A stretch of DNA of 64,000 nt, taken from the NCBI GenBank assembly GCA_026400835.1, contig JAPLOA010000080.1, forward strand, positions 1 to 64,000, in the 5' to 3' direction. Positions 42,721 to 61,469 of the stretch are shown piece after piece (position 1 is the stretch's first letter; the number at the start of each line of letters is the position of its first letter). A program made the position numbers and the translations under genes. Source of the DNA: Planctomycetales bacterium. Its GTDB lineage: Bacteria; Planctomycetota; Planctomycetia; Planctomycetales; Planctomycetaceae. The notes under the pieces are model-generated. The model saw nothing but the letters and a program-made list of their open reading frames with translations, had not been told where the DNA came from and made no database searches.

Positions 42721-43004
42721 GGGAAGTTTTCGGGAAGAATCAAACTGAAGGGAGACGCCGAACAACGGAAAATGGCGGTCTTGGATTGTGGCAATCCCAG
42801 CAGAACGTGTCATTCAAGTCATCAAGAATTCTCGCCCTCGGCCGGGTCGCACAGTGACGGCTTTGAAGTCCACCGAAACGGACGGAATAGTGAACTCCTG
42901 CAGATACGTCTTTCCGCGGCCACTTGGACTTCGTATTCTGCTCCTGATTGCTCAGGTTCCTCGAATAGGATGGCCGAATCGGTCGGGTGTAGTCGCGGAT
43001 TTCG

Positions 43005-43153
43005 GTAGGTCCTCCTTGCCGAGGAGGACTTCGCGGCTTGCCGCGACCTGTGTGCACGGGAACCAAAGTACTCGGCCGATATCCTGGCACCTCCTGCACA
43101 CCAGGTTCGCCTTGCGGCAATACGGAAATCCTTTCCGGCAGAAAGGACCTACC
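43005..43153. repeat. REP/BIME element (GTAG foot, TGCC-loop hairpins), 149 bp
   Basis: Left end reads GTAG then a hairpin (gtcctcc / ggaggac, loop with tgcc). The right end is an inverted copy, ending in ctac (reverse complement GTAG) after a hairpin (tcctttctgccggaaagga on the minus strand). The middle carries cgcggcttgccgcg and ttcgccttgcggcaa. Same architecture as the three elements at 46463-47037. It truncates the vapC remnant that follows. Confidence 0.5.
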
Positions 43154-43385
43154 TTACTCAGAGCTAACCGGACTGATTGAATTCTTCAGTTTCTGGACCA
43201 TCTTACCGTTTGATAATGCGGCTGTGTCAACGTTTCGCCAATTCCGTTCGCAGAAGAACCGTGCTGGCTCGATGGATCTCAAGATTGCTTCTATCGCTGT
43301 GTCATGCGACTGTGTGTTGCTCACGGCCAATACTCGCGACTTTGCCGGCATCGCTGGAATGCGAATTGAGAACTGGTTGGATTAA
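43154..43385 (+). pseudogene. vapC: VapC-type PIN toxin, C-terminal remnant
   Basis: The frame ending at 43385 gives ILPFDNAAVSTFRQFRSQKN, then SMDLKIASIAVSCDCVLLTANTRDFAGI...IENWLD. This is the C-terminal half of a PIN-domain VapC: a conserved Asp in the MDLKIA helix, the NTRDF motif with the last acidic residue, and the terminal NWL. The N-terminal part, including the first catalytic Asp, is missing. The similarity begins immediately after the repeat element ends at 43153. No VapB is visible upstream, so it is inactive. Confidence 0.5.
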
Positions 43386-43401
43386 TTCCATTTCAAAAAA
43401 A

Positions 43402-46383
43402 CTACAGCGTGCGTTCAAGCGTCAAGTTTTTTCTCGCTATACCACTGAGGCCGCCATCACCGTCAGACAACGAGACGCTCACGGTTTTGACCGTTCGAAG
43501 AGAAGACGTCCCTGCGAACTTGTATGTCAAGGAACGCATCAACGCGGTGACCGCGGCGGTGGTTGTCGAACTGTTCAACGTCACGACCAAAGGAACAGTA
43601 CCGCTCGTTCCACCGACAAAGGTTCCAATCAAAATACCTCCGAAGCGGATGCTTGAACCCGACACACCAATCTGGCCTGGGGAATTCCCAACGCTGCGAA
43701 CCGTTAAACGATCCAAAACATGAGCGTTTGCCGAAATCCACAACGTCAACTTGCCACCGGAGAAGTTTAAAGAATCGACATCTGTCGCCGAGGCACTGGA
43801 ATCCAGCAGAATCGGGTTCGCATTACCAACCGTCGACAACGGCGAATCCCAACTGCTGATCACTGGAGCATCATTCACGGCAACGACGGTCACAGTCTTA
43901 AAGGCAGGAGCACTGAACCTGCCCACGTTGTCCGTCATCAGGACACGAAGCGTACGTGGAAGCACGGATGGGTTTTCAGAAACGTTGGCGAACGTGAGTG
44001 CTCGCAAAATGCTGGTCGCAGACGCGGTCGTTGCCGAAGGAGCGAGCGTCAGCACGAGAGGACTGGAGCCGCTCGTGCCGCCTGTGAATGTCGCACAAAT
44101 GACGCTTCCGAGTTTGATCGTATTGCCGCTCACACTAATTTGACCGGCACCAGTCCCAACGTTGCGGATCGCGAGCCGATCAGTGGGCTGGCCATTGGCC
44201 GTAATCATGATGTGGAGGAGTCCACCGCCGATATTCGCCCCGTCGGCGTCCGATGCGGACGCGTTCGTATCCAACAACACAGGCACTGCGTTTTCGGTGT
44301 ATGTTACGGACCCATCAAATGCCGCAATCACAGGAGCATCATTCACGGCAACGACGGTCACAGTCTTAAAGACAGGAGCGCTGAACTTGCCCACGTTATC
44401 CGTCATCAGGACACGAAGCGTACGTGGAAGCACGGACGGGTTCTCTGAAACGCTGGCAAACGTCAGGGCTCGCAAAATACTGGTCGCAGACGCGGTCGTT
44501 GCCGAAGGATCGAGCGTCACCACGAGGGGACTGGAGCCGCTCGTGCCGCCTGTGAATGTCGCACAAATGACGCTTCCGAGTTTGATCGTATTGCCGCTCA
44601 CACTAATTTGACCGGCACCAGTCCCAACGTTGCGGATCGCGAGCCGATCAGTGGATTGTCCATTCGCCGTAATCATGATGTGGAGGAGTCCACCACCGAT
44701 ATTCAACCCGTCGGGGTCCGATACGGACGCGTTCGAATCTACCAACACGGGCACTGCGTTTTCGGTATATGTGACAGACCCATCAAACGCCGCAATCACC
44801 GGAGCATCATTCACGGCGGTCACCGTCACCAGCTTGCTCACAGCCGCACTGGTCCCGCCGTCGCCATCGGCCACCACCACTTGCACTCGGCGAGCGGCCG
44901 TCGACGGGGATTCAGACACATTCTGAAACCAGATGGCCTGCAGCAGAGCCGTCACGGCTGAGCTGTTCGCGGCGGCATTCAGAGTCACCACCAGCGGCGT
45001 CGAGCCGTTTGTTCCGCCGGACTTCGTCCCGATCAGCACGCCACCGAACGAGATGTTATCTCCCGACACGCCAATCTGTCCGGCCGAGTTGCCCACGTGT
45101 CGCACACTCAACCGATCCGCCGCCGTCCCATTCGCCGCGAACGACACCGTCACGGTCCCGCCCGCGAAGTCTGATGAATCCGCATCCACCACCGACACAT
45201 TCGCATCCAACACCACAGGCAACGAGTTCTCGACGAATGACGTCGTGCCGTCCCACGCGGAAACCACCGGGGCGGTGTTTTGAGGGACTTCGAAGGTCTT
45301 GACGGTTGCCAGCTTTGTCACTGGATCAGTACCAACGACACCAAGATGCCCGTCCGCTGTCACAAACAACGCTCCACGTTTGAAATCCTTAGCTGATCCA
45401 AACAGAGTGGTCGCCGTGTAAGTTCGTGTCTGCAAGCTTGCAAGGTCTGTCGCCGTCACGATCCCTTGATCCGTTGACGCGAACAAATACCCGCTCTCGT
45501 ACACAGCCGCAGTGACATACCCAGCACCAAGATGTGTCTTGAAACCGCCGTCTTCTACTCCCCACAACGCCGTCTGTACAGCTCCGTTTACGTCAGCGTG
45601 AATTCCAACACCAAGTGGACCCGCAGGACCGTCGACAACATCCATTCTCAGGAGACTGAGCCCTTCTGGAGTCAGGTACTGAACGTCTAATAGTGCATAA
45701 GATCCATCGGCTTGCTGCTCATAAACAATGCCAAGGGTATTCAGATCTTCGTCTCCAGCACGTCCACCGATGAAACGCCCGTCATCTGTAATCGAATATG
45801 CCGCAAAATACATGTTACCAATGCCAGGTAACTGAACAGCTCTGTCAGCACCAACGTCATAATAATATGCATCGATCGATCCGATTGATCCAACGACTCG
45901 ACCATCAGTACTAACGTCAAAGTTACTACCGAGAGAGTTCAAAACATGTTCACCTGAGTCATCCCAATACGCCATGTTTCGACCAGCAGCTGAATCAAGA
46001 AATCCAGTAAAAACAAACTCTCCGTTCCGCTGGATCACTCCTGAGATGTTTCCATTTCCAGCAAACACGTAGGATTCGGATGCTCCTGTGTTCAGATTCA
46101 CACTCCAAGCGATCGGTGCTCCGTCGTTCCGAGTTCCCGGAATGATAAGAGTGTCGCCAAACACGCGTGAACCACCCAAGTGACCAGACTCGGAGAACTG
46201 GACAGTCACGGGATAGGTCTGCACGAGATCACCAATCGCCGAGCCACTCAGCAAGCACCGGCATTCAACGGTCTCCGTTGACCAATTCTGCCGTTGACGT
46301 CGACGATCCCGGCCGCCCCGCACCGAGCCGCCCACCACCATCCTCGACACCGCCGCTCTCAGGCGATTCCACATCTCATCCAT
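43402..46383 (-). CDS. Large cadherin-like repeat secreted protein
   Basis: 993 residues. The N-terminus has an Arg-rich stretch then VECRCLLSGSA, a variant of the LEPR-XLL export-linked motif of planctomycete surface proteins. Residues ~50-370 form repeated SITDDGRFIGG-type blades (HAF/propeller-like). From ~370 there are four cadherin-like domains, each opening NDAPVI or NTAPVV, with a SYTENAVPVLLD-like segment and a DGDGGTSAAV or DNVGKFSAP end. The two central domains are almost identical at DNA level with a 468-bp (156-codon) period. The domain type matches the C-terminal domain of the adhesin at 1-2310. Likely an adhesin or matrix protein. Confidence 0.5.
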   Translation of the reverse strand: MDEMWNRLRAAVSRMVVGGSVRGGRDRRRQRQNWSTETVECRCLLSGSAIGDLVQTYPVTVQFSESGHLGGSRVFGDTLIIPGTRNDGAPIAWSVNLNTGASESYVFAGNGNISGVIQRNGEFVFTGFLDSAAGRNMAYWDDSGEHVLNSLGSNFDVSTDGRVVGSIGSIDAYYYDVGADRAVQLPGIGNMYFAAYSITDDGRFIGGRAGDEDLNTLGIVYEQQADGSYALLDVQYLTPEGLSLLRMDVVDGPAGPLGVGIHADVNGAVQTALWGVEDGGFKTHLGAGYVTAAVYESGYLFASTDQGIVTATDLASLQTRTYTATTLFGSAKDFKRGALFVTADGHLGVVGTDPVTKLATVKTFEVPQNTAPVVSAWDGTTSFVENSLPVVLDANVSVVDADSSDFAGGTVTVSFAANGTAADRLSVRHVGNSAGQIGVSGDNISFGGVLIGTKSGGTNGSTPLVVTLNAAANSSAVTALLQAIWFQNVSESPSTAARRVQVVVADGDGGTSAAVSKLVTVTAVNDAPVIAAFDGSVTYTENAVPVLVDSNASVSDPDGLNIGGGLLHIMITANGQSTDRLAIRNVGTGAGQISVSGNTIKLGSVICATFTGGTSGSSPLVVTLDPSATTASATSILRALTFASVSENPSVLPRTLRVLMTDNVGKFSAPVFKTVTVVAVNDAPVIAAFDGSVTYTENAVPVLLDTNASASDADGANIGGGLLHIMITANGQPTDRLAIRNVGTGAGQISVSGNTIKLGSVICATFTGGTSGSSPLVLTLAPSATTASATSILRALTFANVSENPSVLPRTLRVLMTDNVGRFSAPAFKTVTVVAVNDAPVISSWDSPLSTVGNANPILLDSSASATDVDSLNFSGGKLTLWISANAHVLDRLTVRSVGNSPGQIGVSGSSIRFGGILIGTFVGGTSGTVPLVVTLNSSTTTAAVTALMRSLTYKFAGTSSLRTVKTVSVSLSDGDGGLSGIARKNLTLERTL
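43871..44810. repeat. Tandem in-gene repeats, 468-bp period
   Basis: The anchor tcattcacgg occurs at 43871, 44339 and 44807, i.e. exactly 468 bp apart. The first two units share very long identical stretches, pointing to recent duplication or gene conversion. Confidence 0.5.
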
Positions 46384-46462
46384 CCCCCAAAAACAAACCC
46401 CAATCGCGATTCACCTCGCCCCTCATCCTACCGCCACACCCCATCAAACATTACCTGAAACT

Positions 46463-46653
46463 GTAGGTCCACTCTGCCGGAGTGGACTTCGCGGCCCGCC
46501 GCGACCTTGTGTGCACTCGGGTCAGTCACGTCGGCCCCGACCTCGCTCAACTCCCACCACGTGTTTTCGCAAGGACGCCCTGCCGCTGTTCAACATCGCC
46601 CGGCACTGGGGTTCGCCTTGCGGCGAAAGTCCTGCCCGGCAGGCTGGACCTAC
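46463..46653. repeat. REP/BIME element A, 191 bp
   Basis: Begins GTAG + hairpin (gtccactc / gagtggac, TGCCG loop), continues with cgcggcccgccgcgacct and tgtgtgca, and ends with the inverted REP and ctac. Followed after one base by element B. The region 46384-46462 before it is C-rich and holds no gene. Confidence 0.5.
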
Positions 46654-46654
46654 C

Positions 46655-46845
46655 GTAGATCCTCTCTGCCGGAGAGGACTTCGCGACCTGTCGCGACCTT
46701 GTGTGCAACCGGTCCAGTCACGTCGGCCCCGACCTCGCTCAACTCCCACCACGTGTTCTCGCAAGCACGCCCCGCCGTTCCTCAACCCGCGGCGGCTGAA
46801 CGGTTCGCCTTGCGGCAAAAGTCCAGCCCGGCAGGCTGAACCTAC
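46655..46845. repeat. REP/BIME element B, 191 bp
   Basis: Starts GTAG at 46655, hairpin tcctctc / gagagga around TGCCG, same middle segment as element A, ends ctac at 46845. Head-to-tail with A and C at 192-bp spacing. Confidence 0.5.
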
Positions 46846-46846
46846 T

Positions 46847-47037
46847 GTAGATCCTCTCTGCCGGAGAGGATTTCGCGGCCCGCCGCGACCTTGTGCGCAA
46901 CCGGTCCAGTGACGTCGGCCCCGACCTCTTGCAAATCCCACCACGTGTTTTCGCAAGCACGCCCCGCCGCTGTTCAACCTCGCCCGCCACCGCGGTTCGC
47001 CTTGCGGCGAAAGTCCAGCCCGGCAGGCTGGACCTAC
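46847..47037. repeat. REP/BIME element C, 191 bp, overlapping the RAYT stop codon
   Basis: Third copy, from GTAG at 46847 to ctac at 47034-47037. The terminal cta (47034-47036) is, on the minus strand, the TAG stop codon of the transposase gene, so the REP foot provides that stop. Confidence 0.5.
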
Positions 47038-47645
47038 CGGAATGCGCCGCCGTATTTCCAGTCTTCTGAACGTTGGACAAGCCCAGCCTTCCGGGGATTG
47101 CCAACGATGTACGCGTCAATCTGATCATCCTGCTCGTCACTGCGAGACCAATGATCGAACCACTCATCCTGCCAGAATCTTCCGCCTGGTAGCTCAGCAA
47201 GCTTCGCGGCTTGATGCCCGGTCCAACGTTTGAAATCTTCGAGTGACTCCTTCAAGGTGGTTTTCAGAACGCTCATAAAGAGATGAATGTGGTTCGGCAT
47301 AATCACGAACCGATAGACGATCCATCTGCCTCTCCTTACGCGATGTTCAATGGCCTCGACAACCATCTTGGCGATTGCGGAATCTGCGAGGAGCGAATTC
47401 TCTTCGCAGGAATCAAGCCACCTCTCCATCTCACGGAAGATCGTGCGAGAAACCAAAAGCCCGGAATCGTCAGCGTTGGCAGTCGACTTTCTGGCGAGTT
47501 CCTCGGACAGCAATCGAATGCGTTCTTCTCCACCAGCCGGAATTGCACCTGCCAGATGAATGGTGACGAAATATCGCCCGTCTTCGACTTCCCAGTGCGG
47601 CAGCCGACCTCGCCAAAACCCTATTGTCTGTGGTTTGCGGAGCAT
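47034..47645 (-). mobile_element. RAYT: REP-associated tyrosine transposase (Y1_Tnp/IS200-like)
   Basis: 203 residues. HUH-type nuclease of the Y1_Tnp superfamily: YRFVIMPNHIHLFMSVL carries the HxH metal motif, followed by LEDFKRWTGHQA, the GGRFWQDEWFDHWSR segment and a terminal YIVGNPRKAGLV motif typical of RAYTs. I cannot assign the catalytic Tyr with certainty; the usual position in the FWQ segment is Trp here, while a Tyr is present in DAYIVGNP. RAYTs are single-copy, domesticated relatives of IS200 that act on REP sequences. REP elements lie directly on both sides (46463-47037 and 47685 onward). Confidence 0.5.
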
Positions 47646-47684
47646 GGCTGAATTCTACTCATTAAGGTCGCGAGTGTAAATCAC

Positions 47685-47822
47685 GTAGGTCCTCTCTGCC
47701 GGAGAGGATTTCGCGACCTGTCGCGACCTTGTGTGCACGCGATTCAGTCACATCGGCATCAATCCCGTTCGACATGCATGCCTGCCTTCACAATCCCGCC
47801 TTTGCAGCGAAAGTCCTTTCTG
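47685..47822. repeat. REP/BIME element D, right arm degenerate
   Basis: A complete left REP (GTAG, hairpin tcctctc / gagagga, TGCCG loop) and the usual cgcgacctgtcgcgacct middle. The right REP is only partly recognisable (gcagcgaaagtcctttctgg) and lacks the closing ctac. It begins 39 bp before the RAYT start codon. Confidence 0.5.
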
Positions 47823-47850
47823 GAACACGCAGGACATGGACTTTATGGAT

Positions 47851-47942
47851 TCACTTGAGTCGTTCTCTTATCAATTGCGAGAGCCATCATTCTCAGCAGC
47901 AGGCTGCTGAGAGGGAAAGCTGCAGCGGGCTGCAGCACTCCA
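47851..47942. repeat. 92-bp direct repeat, left copy, CAGCAGGCTG family
   Basis: Nearly identical, without gaps, to 49132-49223. Contains two hairpins (cagcagcaggctgctg and ctgcagcgggctgcag) and ends in tgcagcactcca. The two copies bracket the toxin-antitoxin genes. Confidence 0.5.
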
Positions 47943-48006
47943 AAGCGGCGAACGTCCTCAGGAAAACAACGCTTCCTTACCGCAGAAACTGTGGTATTAC
48001 GGCCGT

Positions 48007-48297: not shown

Positions 48298-48389
48298 CTT
48301 CGTGCCTGGAAGCTCATTCGACTTGCACTTTGACTCACTCCTGCATGCATGGTAAAATCACGTGTCTCGAAAATTCACGTGAGGTCTTC

Positions 48390-48620
48390 ATGCCAACGCC
48401 ACAAATCAATACTCTGGCCAGCTTTCACCAGTTCGTCGGTCAACAACTGGCGTCTGAGGATACGGCTCAGATGTCGCCCGAACTGGCTGTCGCGATCTGG
48501 CGAGAACGCGAAGAAACCCTGGCTGCTCTACGCGAAGGGCTGGCTGATGTTGAAGCAGGACACACGTTTTCCGCCGAAGACGTCATTCGCCAACTTCGTG
48601 CCGAACTGCATGAGGCATGA
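48390..48620 (+). CDS. Antitoxin of the ParE/RelE pair
   Basis: 76 residues from the ATG at 48390 (gtgaggtct upstream; the longer frame from 48330 is less likely). Short acidic-helical protein with a C-terminal FSAEDVIRQLRAELHEA segment. Position and 4-bp overlap with the toxin start identify it as the antitoxin; the DNA-binding fold cannot be read from the sequence. Confidence 0.5.
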   Translation: MPTPQINTLASFHQFVGQQLASEDTAQMSPELAVAIWREREETLAALREGLADVEAGHTFSAEDVIRQLRAELHEA

Positions 48621-48949
48621 ATTTTCAGGTTAAGATTTCACAGCGTGCGAAGCAGGACATCCACGAGATTCAAGCGTGGATTAAAAGTCGGTCATTAACT
48701 GGGGCCGCAGCTTGGCTCGCCGCCCTTGAAAAATCCATCAGTCATCTTTCCGAGTTCGCCGATTCCAATGCGTCTGCTCCTGAGGCTGACGATCTAGGGA
48801 TCGATTTGAAACAGCAACTGTTCAAGACACGACGAGGCAATTCCTACCGGCTCCTGTTCGTTATACGTGCCGAGACAGTGCTTATCCTGGCCGTTCGGGG
48901 AATGGGGCAGGATTTGCTGCATGACGGACACATTGAGAGTTCAGATTGA
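48617..48949 (+). CDS. ParE/RelE-superfamily toxin
   Basis: 110 residues. The fold is recognisable from the N-terminal VKISQRAKQDIHEIQAWI helix and the beta-sheet LFKTRRGNSYRLLFVI, then VLILAVRGMGQDLL. ParE poisons gyrase and RelE cleaves ribosomal mRNA; residues here do not clearly decide between them. Its ATG overlaps the antitoxin stop (ATGA), so both are translationally coupled. The pair lies between two 92-bp direct repeats. Confidence 0.5.
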   Translation: MNFQVKISQRAKQDIHEIQAWIKSRSLTGAAAWLAALEKSISHLSEFADSNASAPEADDLGIDLKQQLFKTRRGNSYRLLFVIRAETVLILAVRGMGQDLLHDGHIESSD

Positions 48950-60034: not shown

Positions 60035-60180
60035 TGCGGATCCTTTCTGCCGGAAAAGACTTCGCGGCTTGCCGCGACTTTGTGTGCGGGTGGTTTGATT
60101 AAAGCGGGCCGAATTCCGTTGCACAACGTCGCAAAGGGGGGCGCCTGCGGCGAAATTGCTGCCCGGCAGGCAGCACCTAC
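60035..60180. repeat. REP/BIME element E, overlapping the MFS stop codon
   Basis: The left arm is diverged (foot tgcg in place of GTAG, hairpin around ctgccgg). The middle cgcggcttgccgcgact and tgtgtgc is kept; the right arm is the inverted REP ending cagcacctac at 60180. The final cta (60177-60179) is, on the minus strand, the TAG stop of the MFS gene. Confidence 0.5.
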
Positions 60181-61469
60181 TTTACGTCGGCTGCCGCAGG
60201 CCTGATTAGCAGCACGATAATGATTGATAACGCCGCCACACCCGCGAATGCACCAAATATTGCGTTCAACGGAACCTGCCGGTCGCGAAGATAACCGAAT
60301 CCCCAGTCTCCGAATCCACCACAGCTAATACTGACCAGATTCATAAAGCCGTAACCGGTTGCTCGTAATTCCGGCCGAACGATCTGGCACAGAATCGGCA
60401 TGTTATTGCAGTCGAAAAATCCCCAGCCGAATCCGAACAGTACAAGTCCTGCAATGGCAACGCCCGCCGTCGCCGCATTCCCGACACCAAACAGGGCTGG
60501 CAGAAACATGGCCATTCCGATGGCGCTGATAAAAATCCTCCCGCGACTGGTTTTCTTCATCCATCGATCCGCCAGGTAACCGCCAATCGCCGCGCCAACA
60601 ATTGAAGCCGGATGAACAAAAGTCGCAACGAGTCCTGCCTTGCCAAGCCCCAACTGAAACTTCTCCTTCAGAATCGCCGGCATCCAGTCTTTCACAACCC
60701 AGCCCGCGATGGCAGGCAGTGTAAAATAGAGAACCAGCAACAGAAAGTTTCGGTTGCGCCGAAGTTCATTGATCGACTGAGCAGGGCTCAGATTTTGTTT
60801 CTCCAAACTTCGTTCCGGTGAGCGAAGAAAAACAAACAACGGCAGCGAATACAGAACGCCAATAATCCCACACGCCGAAAACGCCCAGCGCCAGCCGTAG
60901 GCAGGAGACTCCGCGACGAAACCCGCCATGCCTCCTACAATCAACCCGCAATAGATCCCGGCCTGATGAAGTCCCACAGCGCGTGAACGAGTGGCACCGA
61001 CATGAAAATCGGTAATCAACGCCAGCGCAGCAGGAATGTAGAAGGCTTCACTGATCCCCATTAACGCGCGAGTAGCAATCAGCATTTCATAAGAATTCAC
61101 CCATGCGGTCATCCAGGTCACTGCAGACCAGACCAGCAAACTAAATCCAATGACCAGCCGTCGGCTGAATCGATCCGCGACGTAGCCACCAAACGGACTC
61201 AGTAAGGCATAGACCCATTTGAACGAGCCGAGCACAAAGCCCCACTGAGCCTCGTTGGAGATCCCCTGAATGTCGCCCACCATCGACGACTTCATGGCCG
61301 CCAGCATTTGCCGGTCGAGATAATTTAATAAAGCCACCGGAAAAAGCAGGAGCACGACGATCCAGGCGAAGGTTGAAACTTTCCCCGCGACCTCGTTAGT
61401 CAAAGGATCTTGTGCAGCAAATTCAGGGGCCTTGCAGGGATCGACCTGATCCGATCTCGGAGTTTTCAT
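60177..61469 (-). CDS. MFS transporter
   Basis: 430 residues with about twelve membrane helices. Typical major facilitator features: a GGYVADRFSRRLVIGFSLLVW loop between helices 2 and 3, and ISEAFYIPAALALITDFHVGATRSRAVGLHQ resembling the sugar-acid/nucleoside permease subgroups. The substrate cannot be determined. The gene ends ADVK followed by TAG, and the TAG belongs to the REP element at 60035-60180. Confidence 0.5.
   Translation of the reverse strand: MKTPRSDQVDPCKAPEFAAQDPLTNEVAGKVSTFAWIVVLLLFPVALLNYLDRQMLAAMKSSMVGDIQGISNEAQWGFVLGSFKWVYALLSPFGGYVADRFSRRLVIGFSLLVWSAVTWMTAWVNSYEMLIATRALMGISEAFYIPAALALITDFHVGATRSRAVGLHQAGIYCGLIVGGMAGFVAESPAYGWRWAFSACGIIGVLYSLPLFVFLRSPERSLEKQNLSPAQSINELRRNRNFLLLVLYFTLPAIAGWVVKDWMPAILKEKFQLGLGKAGLVATFVHPASIVGAAIGGYLADRWMKKTSRGRIFISAIGMAMFLPALFGVGNAATAGVAIAGLVLFGFGWGFFDCNNMPILCQIVRPELRATGYGFMNLVSISCGGFGDWGFGYLRDRQVPLNAIFGAFAGVAALSIIIVLLIRPAAADVK

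Follow-up and report, generated by a model that had tools for sequence, protein, structure and literature searches.

REPIN array and RAYT gene in the window

The stretch analyzed here (the window) comprises the first 64,000 nt of contig JAPLOA010000080.1 of a Planctomycetales bacterium (assembly GCA_026400835.1), and it harbors a family of repetitive extragenic palindromes (REPs) together with a gene for a REP-associated tyrosine transposase (RAYT). Three head-to-tail copies of an inverted REP doublet (REPIN) adjoin the gene on one side, and a partial copy lies on its 5' side (Table 1). Each array copy measures 191 nt, which with the 1-nt joint gives a period of 192, and Tandem Repeats Finder likewise reported 3.0 copies with a period of 192; copies 2 and 3 are 84% and 89% identical to copy 1, respectively. 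A preliminary description of the window had claimed three head-to-tail 191-bp elements made of paired inverted GTAG/TGCCG units, a fourth partial copy at 47685 across a Y1_Tnp gene, and further copies near 43005 and 60035. The coordinates and period agree with the first claim, the fourth copy is present with its first unit intact and its second degenerate, and both outlying copies proved to be inverted pairs, the latter with an altered foot.

Table 1. Features of the REPIN/RAYT locus and of the dispersed copies in the window
Feature	Position	Strand	Remarks
Outer terminal inverted repeat GGGTGTAGTCGCGGATTTCG	42985..43004	+	Abuts the GTAG at 43005 on its 5' side; no counterpart found at the other end
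Dispersed REPIN, 148 nt	43005..43152	+	Inverted pair
REPIN copy 1	46463..46653	+	Unit A 46463-46487 (+), unit B 46629-46653 (-); both GTAG feet face outward
REPIN copy 2	46655..46845	+	Unit A 46655-46679 (+), unit B 46821-46845 (-); preceding 1-nt joint C
REPIN copy 3	46847..47037	+	Unit A 46847-46871 (+), unit B 47013-47037 (-); preceding 1-nt joint T
GTAG foot of last unit B	47034..47037	-	RAYT stop codon formed by its TAG (47034-47036)
RAYT, 203 aa	47034..47645	-	HUH H119/H121, W158-Q159, Y179
Partial REPIN, RAYT 5' side	47685..47820 (end approximate)	+	Unit A 47685-47709 intact, unit B degenerate
Degenerate dispersed REPIN	60036..60181	+	Unit A foot GCGG

Each 25-nt unit consists of a GTAG foot, an 8-bp stem, and a TGCCG loop, and each array copy holds an inverted pair of such units. 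If a T.G closing pair is allowed, the loop can, in our reading, be described as a GCC triloop. In addition, a second hairpin stands directly behind the first in every unit (TCGCGGC..GCCGCGA in unit A and TTCGCC-GCAA-GGCGAA in unit B). When copy 3 was folded as single-stranded DNA, z values of -3.3 (unit A) and -4.5 (unit B) were obtained. Such stable folds, like the tandem array itself, would also suit immobile structural or regulatory hairpins (terminators or mRNA 3' ends) multiplied by recombination and slippage alone, and roles of this kind have been hypothesised for REPs (PMC3733652). This explanation is nevertheless very improbable, as an Rfam search of 42900-48000 gave no match at E<=0.1, and the units recur at many dispersed places with fixed ends, terminal inverted repeats (TIRs), and target duplications.

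The 203-aa product of the RAYT gene matched Pfam Y1_Tnp at 7.7e-6. Its AlphaFold model (pLDDT 89.6) found 4er8, the E. coli RAYT with a REP hairpin, as the top fold match in the PDB (E 3.7e-7, TM 0.53/0.64), followed by ISDra2 and then by IS200 transposases. In an alignment of 17 sequences, H119, H121, and Y179 were invariant, revealing an HUH motif and a catalytic tyrosine within a Y1 fold, and W158, N183, and P184 were likewise invariant and Q159 nearly so, corresponding to the Y---NP and WQ/WE motifs of class 2. Across eight pairs, pS ranged from 0.66 to 0.82, with synonymous sites near saturation, and pN, far lower, from 0.22 to 0.31, so that the RAYT is under constraint. No other member of its clade was found in the genome, where the next best relative shared 35% identity.

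Ten distinct members of the RAYT clade were read, namely the window copy and loci L036, L037 (the same as L064), L065, L066, L067, L068, L069 (the same as L038), L070, and L203. In a RAYT tree, a step the preliminary description had proposed, the window clade received a support of 100/100; the tree has 17 rows and holds nine of the ten members, L070 being excluded from it and from the alignment for its broken frame. GTAG hairpins lie close beside the gene in nine of the ten members, mostly on both sides, so that the gene is flanked by genome-repeated GT[AG]G hairpins as expected of a RAYT (TnpAREP). By comparison, the strict unit was absent from the flanks of other Y1 loci (0/29, 0/30, and 0/31, or 0/87 distinct places after removal of three loci occurring twice), and also from 73 loci taken from genome contigs.

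At the clade loci, the foot and loop core are kept while the stem varies. Most stems read GTCC-NNNN, with GTCAC... in L070, GTKCCGGCG in L203, and CCCTCGCC and CCTCCTTC in L066, and the loop core is GCC throughout except for one GCT unit (L069) and one ACC unit (L203). The stems covary: among 22 hand-picked distinct units from the ten RAYT loci, with relatedness controlled only by slid versions, 97.2% of the cells were paired compared with 68.9% after shuffling, and double changes occurred at all eight stem pairs (shuffled mean 5.2), involving 52 cells versus 14.7. In L065, L066, and L067, the residue preceding the first HUH histidine is changed from N to S or T, and both catalytic histidines are kept.

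The TAG of the GTAG foot serves as the RAYT stop codon in the window, L036, L069, and L203, that is, in four of the nine loci printed. In L065, GTAG stands at the RAYT stop within an otherwise unrecognisable unit, and in L037 the unit is read through in frame. This sharing of the stop codon with the REP foot is listed as new here; flanking repeats overlapping RAYT ends have been noted earlier ('3'ov', PMC3733652).

Farther along the window, a ParE-like toxin gene (48617-48949, Pfam 6.5e-9) is overlapped at its start by a 96-aa open reading frame (ORF; 48330-48620), which had no Pfam match over the part scanned; the two probably form a toxin-antitoxin pair.

Repeat population of the genome and its relatives

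In the window's own genome (G000; 7.58 Mb in 112 contigs), the pattern GTAGGTCCNNNNTGCCGNNNNGGAC with at most two mismatches matched at 79 places, seven of them at the RAYT locus, compared with four for the reversed pattern. An inverted partner was present for 61 of these 79 units, with GTAG outward and 141-196 nt from GTAG to GTAG, so that two inverted REPs at a defined spacing form the repeated unit, as defines a REPIN. All eight stem pairs were standard in 53 of the units, although the pattern leaves the inner four bases free, and the commonest stems among the 79 were TTTC (26), TGCC (17), and TCCT (10). A second unit arrangement was observed in L306-L309, where the REP pairs are direct rather than inverted and lie 33 nt apart; similar doublets precede L148 and L021.

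Among 170 family genomes, a close RAYT (E <= 1e-25) was detected in five, all of which have units when counted at no more than one mismatch (58 in G000, 20 in G012, 21 in G014, 5 in G029, and 4 in G071). All five units of G029 lie at its RAYT locus, and the four strict units of G071 are located away from its RAYT, whose flanking hairpins have another stem. At least five units were present in 11 of the 170 genomes, and the reversed control never exceeded two hits in any genome. The preliminary description had named two outcomes that would speak against its proposal, a GTAG/TGCCG pattern without genome-wide enrichment and related genomes with the RAYT that lack the repeats; neither was seen, with G029 and G071 qualified as above.

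Tandem copies recur with an exact joint. In the 11 genomes with units, the pattern GGACCTAC-N{0,30}-GTAGGT gave 23 matches, compared with 26 for the reversed control when all gaps of 0-30 are counted. The gap was exactly 1 nt in 19 of the 23 matches, representing 18 distinct places, and the remaining gaps were 5, 15, 24, and 29 nt. Of these 18, 15 belong to G005, two to G029, and one, which was counted on both strands, to G001. The window joints C and T are additional to these 18, because the next unit there starts with GTAGAT and was missed by the pattern. The array elements read in G005 measure 189-196 nt, and no Y1 match was found on the contigs of its arrays. Exact and recurrent 1-nt joining of tandem copies is listed as new here, with 1-2 bp between partners described for two O. 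terrae dimer families (PMC3733652).

Outer terminal inverted repeats of dispersed copies

Dispersed units proved to have conserved flanks with a sharp stop, which extend 20 nt upstream of unit A (32 units used), ending in GGATTTCG, and 26 nt upstream of unit B (28 used), ending in TTGTCAAA. Both flanks start with GGGTGYAGTCGCG, and a transposon responsible for them would be expected to have GGGTGYAGTCGCGG ends. The pattern GGGTGYAGTCGCGRWTK, with at most two mismatches, had 113 matches in the genome compared with 10 for the control, and the first 30 of the 113 were read as TIR loci. A free search placed all 13 unit A matches at -20 and all 13 unit B matches at -26. Conservation by chance was considered and rejected, since a core score of at least 9 arose at the unit B place in just 1.5% of shuffled flanks.

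For dispersed REPINs, 26 pairs remained from 31 rows after three RAYT-locus copies, one place read twice, and one alternative partner had been dropped; the rows required unit A first and allowed at most three mismatches per unit and four in both, which leaves the copy at 60036 outside. The TIR was found on 16 of the 26 pairs (on both sides in 10 and on one side in 6), and this outer TIR at a fixed distance from GTAG is listed as new here. Two cores were left uncounted, a TIR-like one in L007 at -20 and a weak one in L164, which lies on the unit B side at -44. Moreover, the 9-mers outside the TIRs matched at 6 or more of 9 positions (6-8) in 6 of the 10 two-sided REPIN elements, versus 1 of 90 mismatched pairs.

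The same TIR bounds a 143-bp element, with length variants, that lacks this REP unit. In such REP-less elements, 9-bp duplications matching in at least 8 of 9 positions were present in 8 of 14 (perfect at six places and 8/9 at two). The outer element thus has the terminal inverted repeats and target-site duplication of a miniature inverted-repeat transposable element (MITE). Because the related REP-less element has 9-bp target-site duplications, a TIR transposase has probably also moved the REPINs that carry the TIR. The set behind these counts was obtained from 17 pairings minus one alternative, and two of its 16 members hold the REPIN; two mismatched pairs in this set score 9, both drawn from L245, L260, and L261, loci with flanks in common.

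Further features of these elements were observed. The 9-bp flanks of L245, L260, and L261 are common crosswise, as if the genome had recombined at the 143-bp element; misassembly is the alternative, and L260 lies at a contig end. The 143-bp element was read in L234, L237, L256, L257, L262, and others. It contains an inverted repeat (GGGAGGGCGAGGCTCCTGCCGAGCC), has target duplications of 9 bp, and represents a second interior with ends common to the REPIN-bearing element; L254 is a mosaic of both interiors. In L313:301-602, a 302-bp stretch lies between TIR-like ends whose outer 9-mers match at 7/9, and in L311 a lone TIR has a 159-aa ORF nearby, over which a PF01797 match (L213) lies.

Could the RAYT alone have dispersed all copies, the outer inverted repeat being merely the conserved flank of one master REPIN? 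The RAYT linkage would favor this, as would the 10 of 26 dispersed pairs in G000 without the TIR and the REPINs read in G144, G025, and G005 (part of their copies), where the TIR is missing from its fixed places. It is already weakened by the occurrence of the same TIR around an element that lacks this REP and has 9-bp duplications outside the TIR, and larger target duplications are not made by IS200/IS605-type enzymes (PMC2817692); dispersal by the RAYT alone is thus unlikely. The TIR element alone might instead have spread the repeats, leaving the RAYT and its flanking copies as relics. The TIR on 16 of the 26 pairs agrees with this, as do repeat-rich genomes without a close RAYT and the counts within the genus, with 9-64 TIR hits in nine genomes with units and 0-4 in nine without. 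Yet G144 (80 units) and G025 (45 units), which belong outside the genus, have one and zero TIR hits, respectively, TIR-less arrays occur in G005, and the RAYT is under constraint while its flanking units change stem but keep foot and loop, all of which make spread by the TIR element alone unlikely.

Two probable routes of dispersal and relation to known systems

The locus represents a genuine REPIN/RAYT system, and the account that we consider likely is one of two systems, a REPtron in the window and a REPIN that also forms the interior of a TIR element dispersed by a second transposase. Under this account, the window holds an HUH/Y1 RAYT between directly repeated REPINs, which are non-autonomous elements of two inverted two-hairpin units whose GTAG feet face outward. 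If it acts like E. coli TnpAREP, the RAYT may bind GTAG and the hairpin on single-stranded DNA, read the GCC loop core, tolerate many paired stems, cut outside the foot, and rejoin the ends in a circle or strand-transfer step. Ends joined as CTAC-N-GTAG would yield head-to-tail arrays in which a 1-nt joint recurs. The REPIN would, in this genus, have become the interior of the TIR element, and a putative TIR transposase making 9-bp duplications, not found here, would have dispersed many copies. For G000, dispersal by two routes is the simplest explanation. For the more general proposition that one short repeat is used by two unrelated mobility systems, the RAYT (single-strand HUH chemistry, GTAG ends, 1-nt joints, and arrays) and the TIR transposase (GGGTG ends and 9-bp duplications), the chances appear about even.

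Several findings weigh against the two-system account. The activity of the RAYT is a prediction, and its score of 73.7 bits falls below the cut-off of 80 of NCBIfam NF047646 (REP_Tyr_transpos), the match beginning at residue 83 and profile position 22, in our reading after about 50 extra residues; as NF047646 is an equivalog model, this limits that label and not the superfamily membership. The stems found beside the RAYT of the window, namely ACTC, TCTC, and AGCC, are not the commonest of the genome, L068, the most distant clade member, has a single hairpin 2.1 kb off, and in the covariation set further pair types were no better than shuffled (15 versus 14.5). G029 has no dispersed unit, and a close RAYT was lacking in 7 of the 11 genomes with at least five units, all seven being drafts; among them are G001, with 157 units and rated 100% complete, and G144 and G025, drafts in which, given their TIR hits, neither route is visible. 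Use of the same repeat by other Y1 genes in these genomes was considered and rejected, as none of 60 PF01797 matches (G001 19, G005 8, G004 5, G015 9, G025 7, and G144 12; G017 not searched) had a strict unit in the roughly 1-1.5 kb on either side (less where a contig ended), flanks which were scanned for that unit and not for other hairpins. Finally, the TIR-less pairs of G000 count here as well, and no transposase was found between TIRs in L234-L274 and L310-L313 (TIR pairs) or in L310 and L311 (ORFs), the whole genome not being scanned.

The preliminary description had read the locus as a complete planctomycete REP/RAYT system with a GTAG foot. The RAYT locus and the REPIN population with its cognate RAYT uphold that reading in part; it overlooks the TIR on most dispersed pairs and the seven unit-bearing genomes without a close RAYT, and the foot was already known, as Di Nocera et al. 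(2013; PMC3733652) described GTAG REPs in Planctomycetes, with families that coexist in 'R. baltica', and found REPtrons in the majority of species that have GTAG REPs. Like those systems and the E. coli REP-TnpAREP, the present repeats have a GTAG foot, a hairpin, inverted dimers, and clusters, and the repeat-flanked Y1 gene with a flank overlapping the gene end ('3'ov') is also shared with the GTAG REPtrons described there, Planctomycetes included. Compared by description only, the present family differs in that each unit has two hairpins in succession, the GCC loop core is almost constant, and the array joints measure exactly 1 nt.

As for the enzyme, the TnpAY1 subclasses 2.4 and 2.7 of Quentin et al. 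(2018; PMC6006769) similarly have NHIH, WQ, and Y---NP motifs, a length of about 200 aa, and long GT[AG]G REPs, whereas YIVGNP of the present RAYT matches neither of the Y motifs listed for these subclasses exactly. With a near-fixed foot and loop and changing stems, this RAYT clade could be useful for recognition studies beyond gammaproteobacteria. The REPINs of P. fluorescens (Bertels and Rainey 2011; PMC3116915) are likewise inverted REP doublets that form tandem clusters, with a RAYT proposed to act in trans, whereas here the copies abut with 1 nt. REP 'dissemination mechanisms are poorly understood' (PMC8266576), and in this genus one genome holds copies with two distinguishable end sets as well as array joints of one exact length, so that dispersal can be addressed by comparing insertion sites.

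In the open-access literature, no report was found of a REP in a TIR element with a resident RAYT or in Planctomycetes, and the only parallel found for a REP inside a MITE was QMITE2 of Coxiella burnetii (PMC5896051). QMITE2 is a TIR element of 150-190 bp with direct repeats of 7-11 nt and a GTAG REP inside, its small TIR-less copies resemble plain REPs, and the main text of that report describes it without mention of a RAYT. The present element, from another phylum, differs in its cognate RAYT, its full REPIN interior, and the REP-less element with the same TIR. If the two-system account holds, some of the REP populations that lack a resident RAYT would be explained by REPINs carried along inside MITEs, and the parallel with Coxiella would make the pairing of REP and MITE a recurrent alliance.
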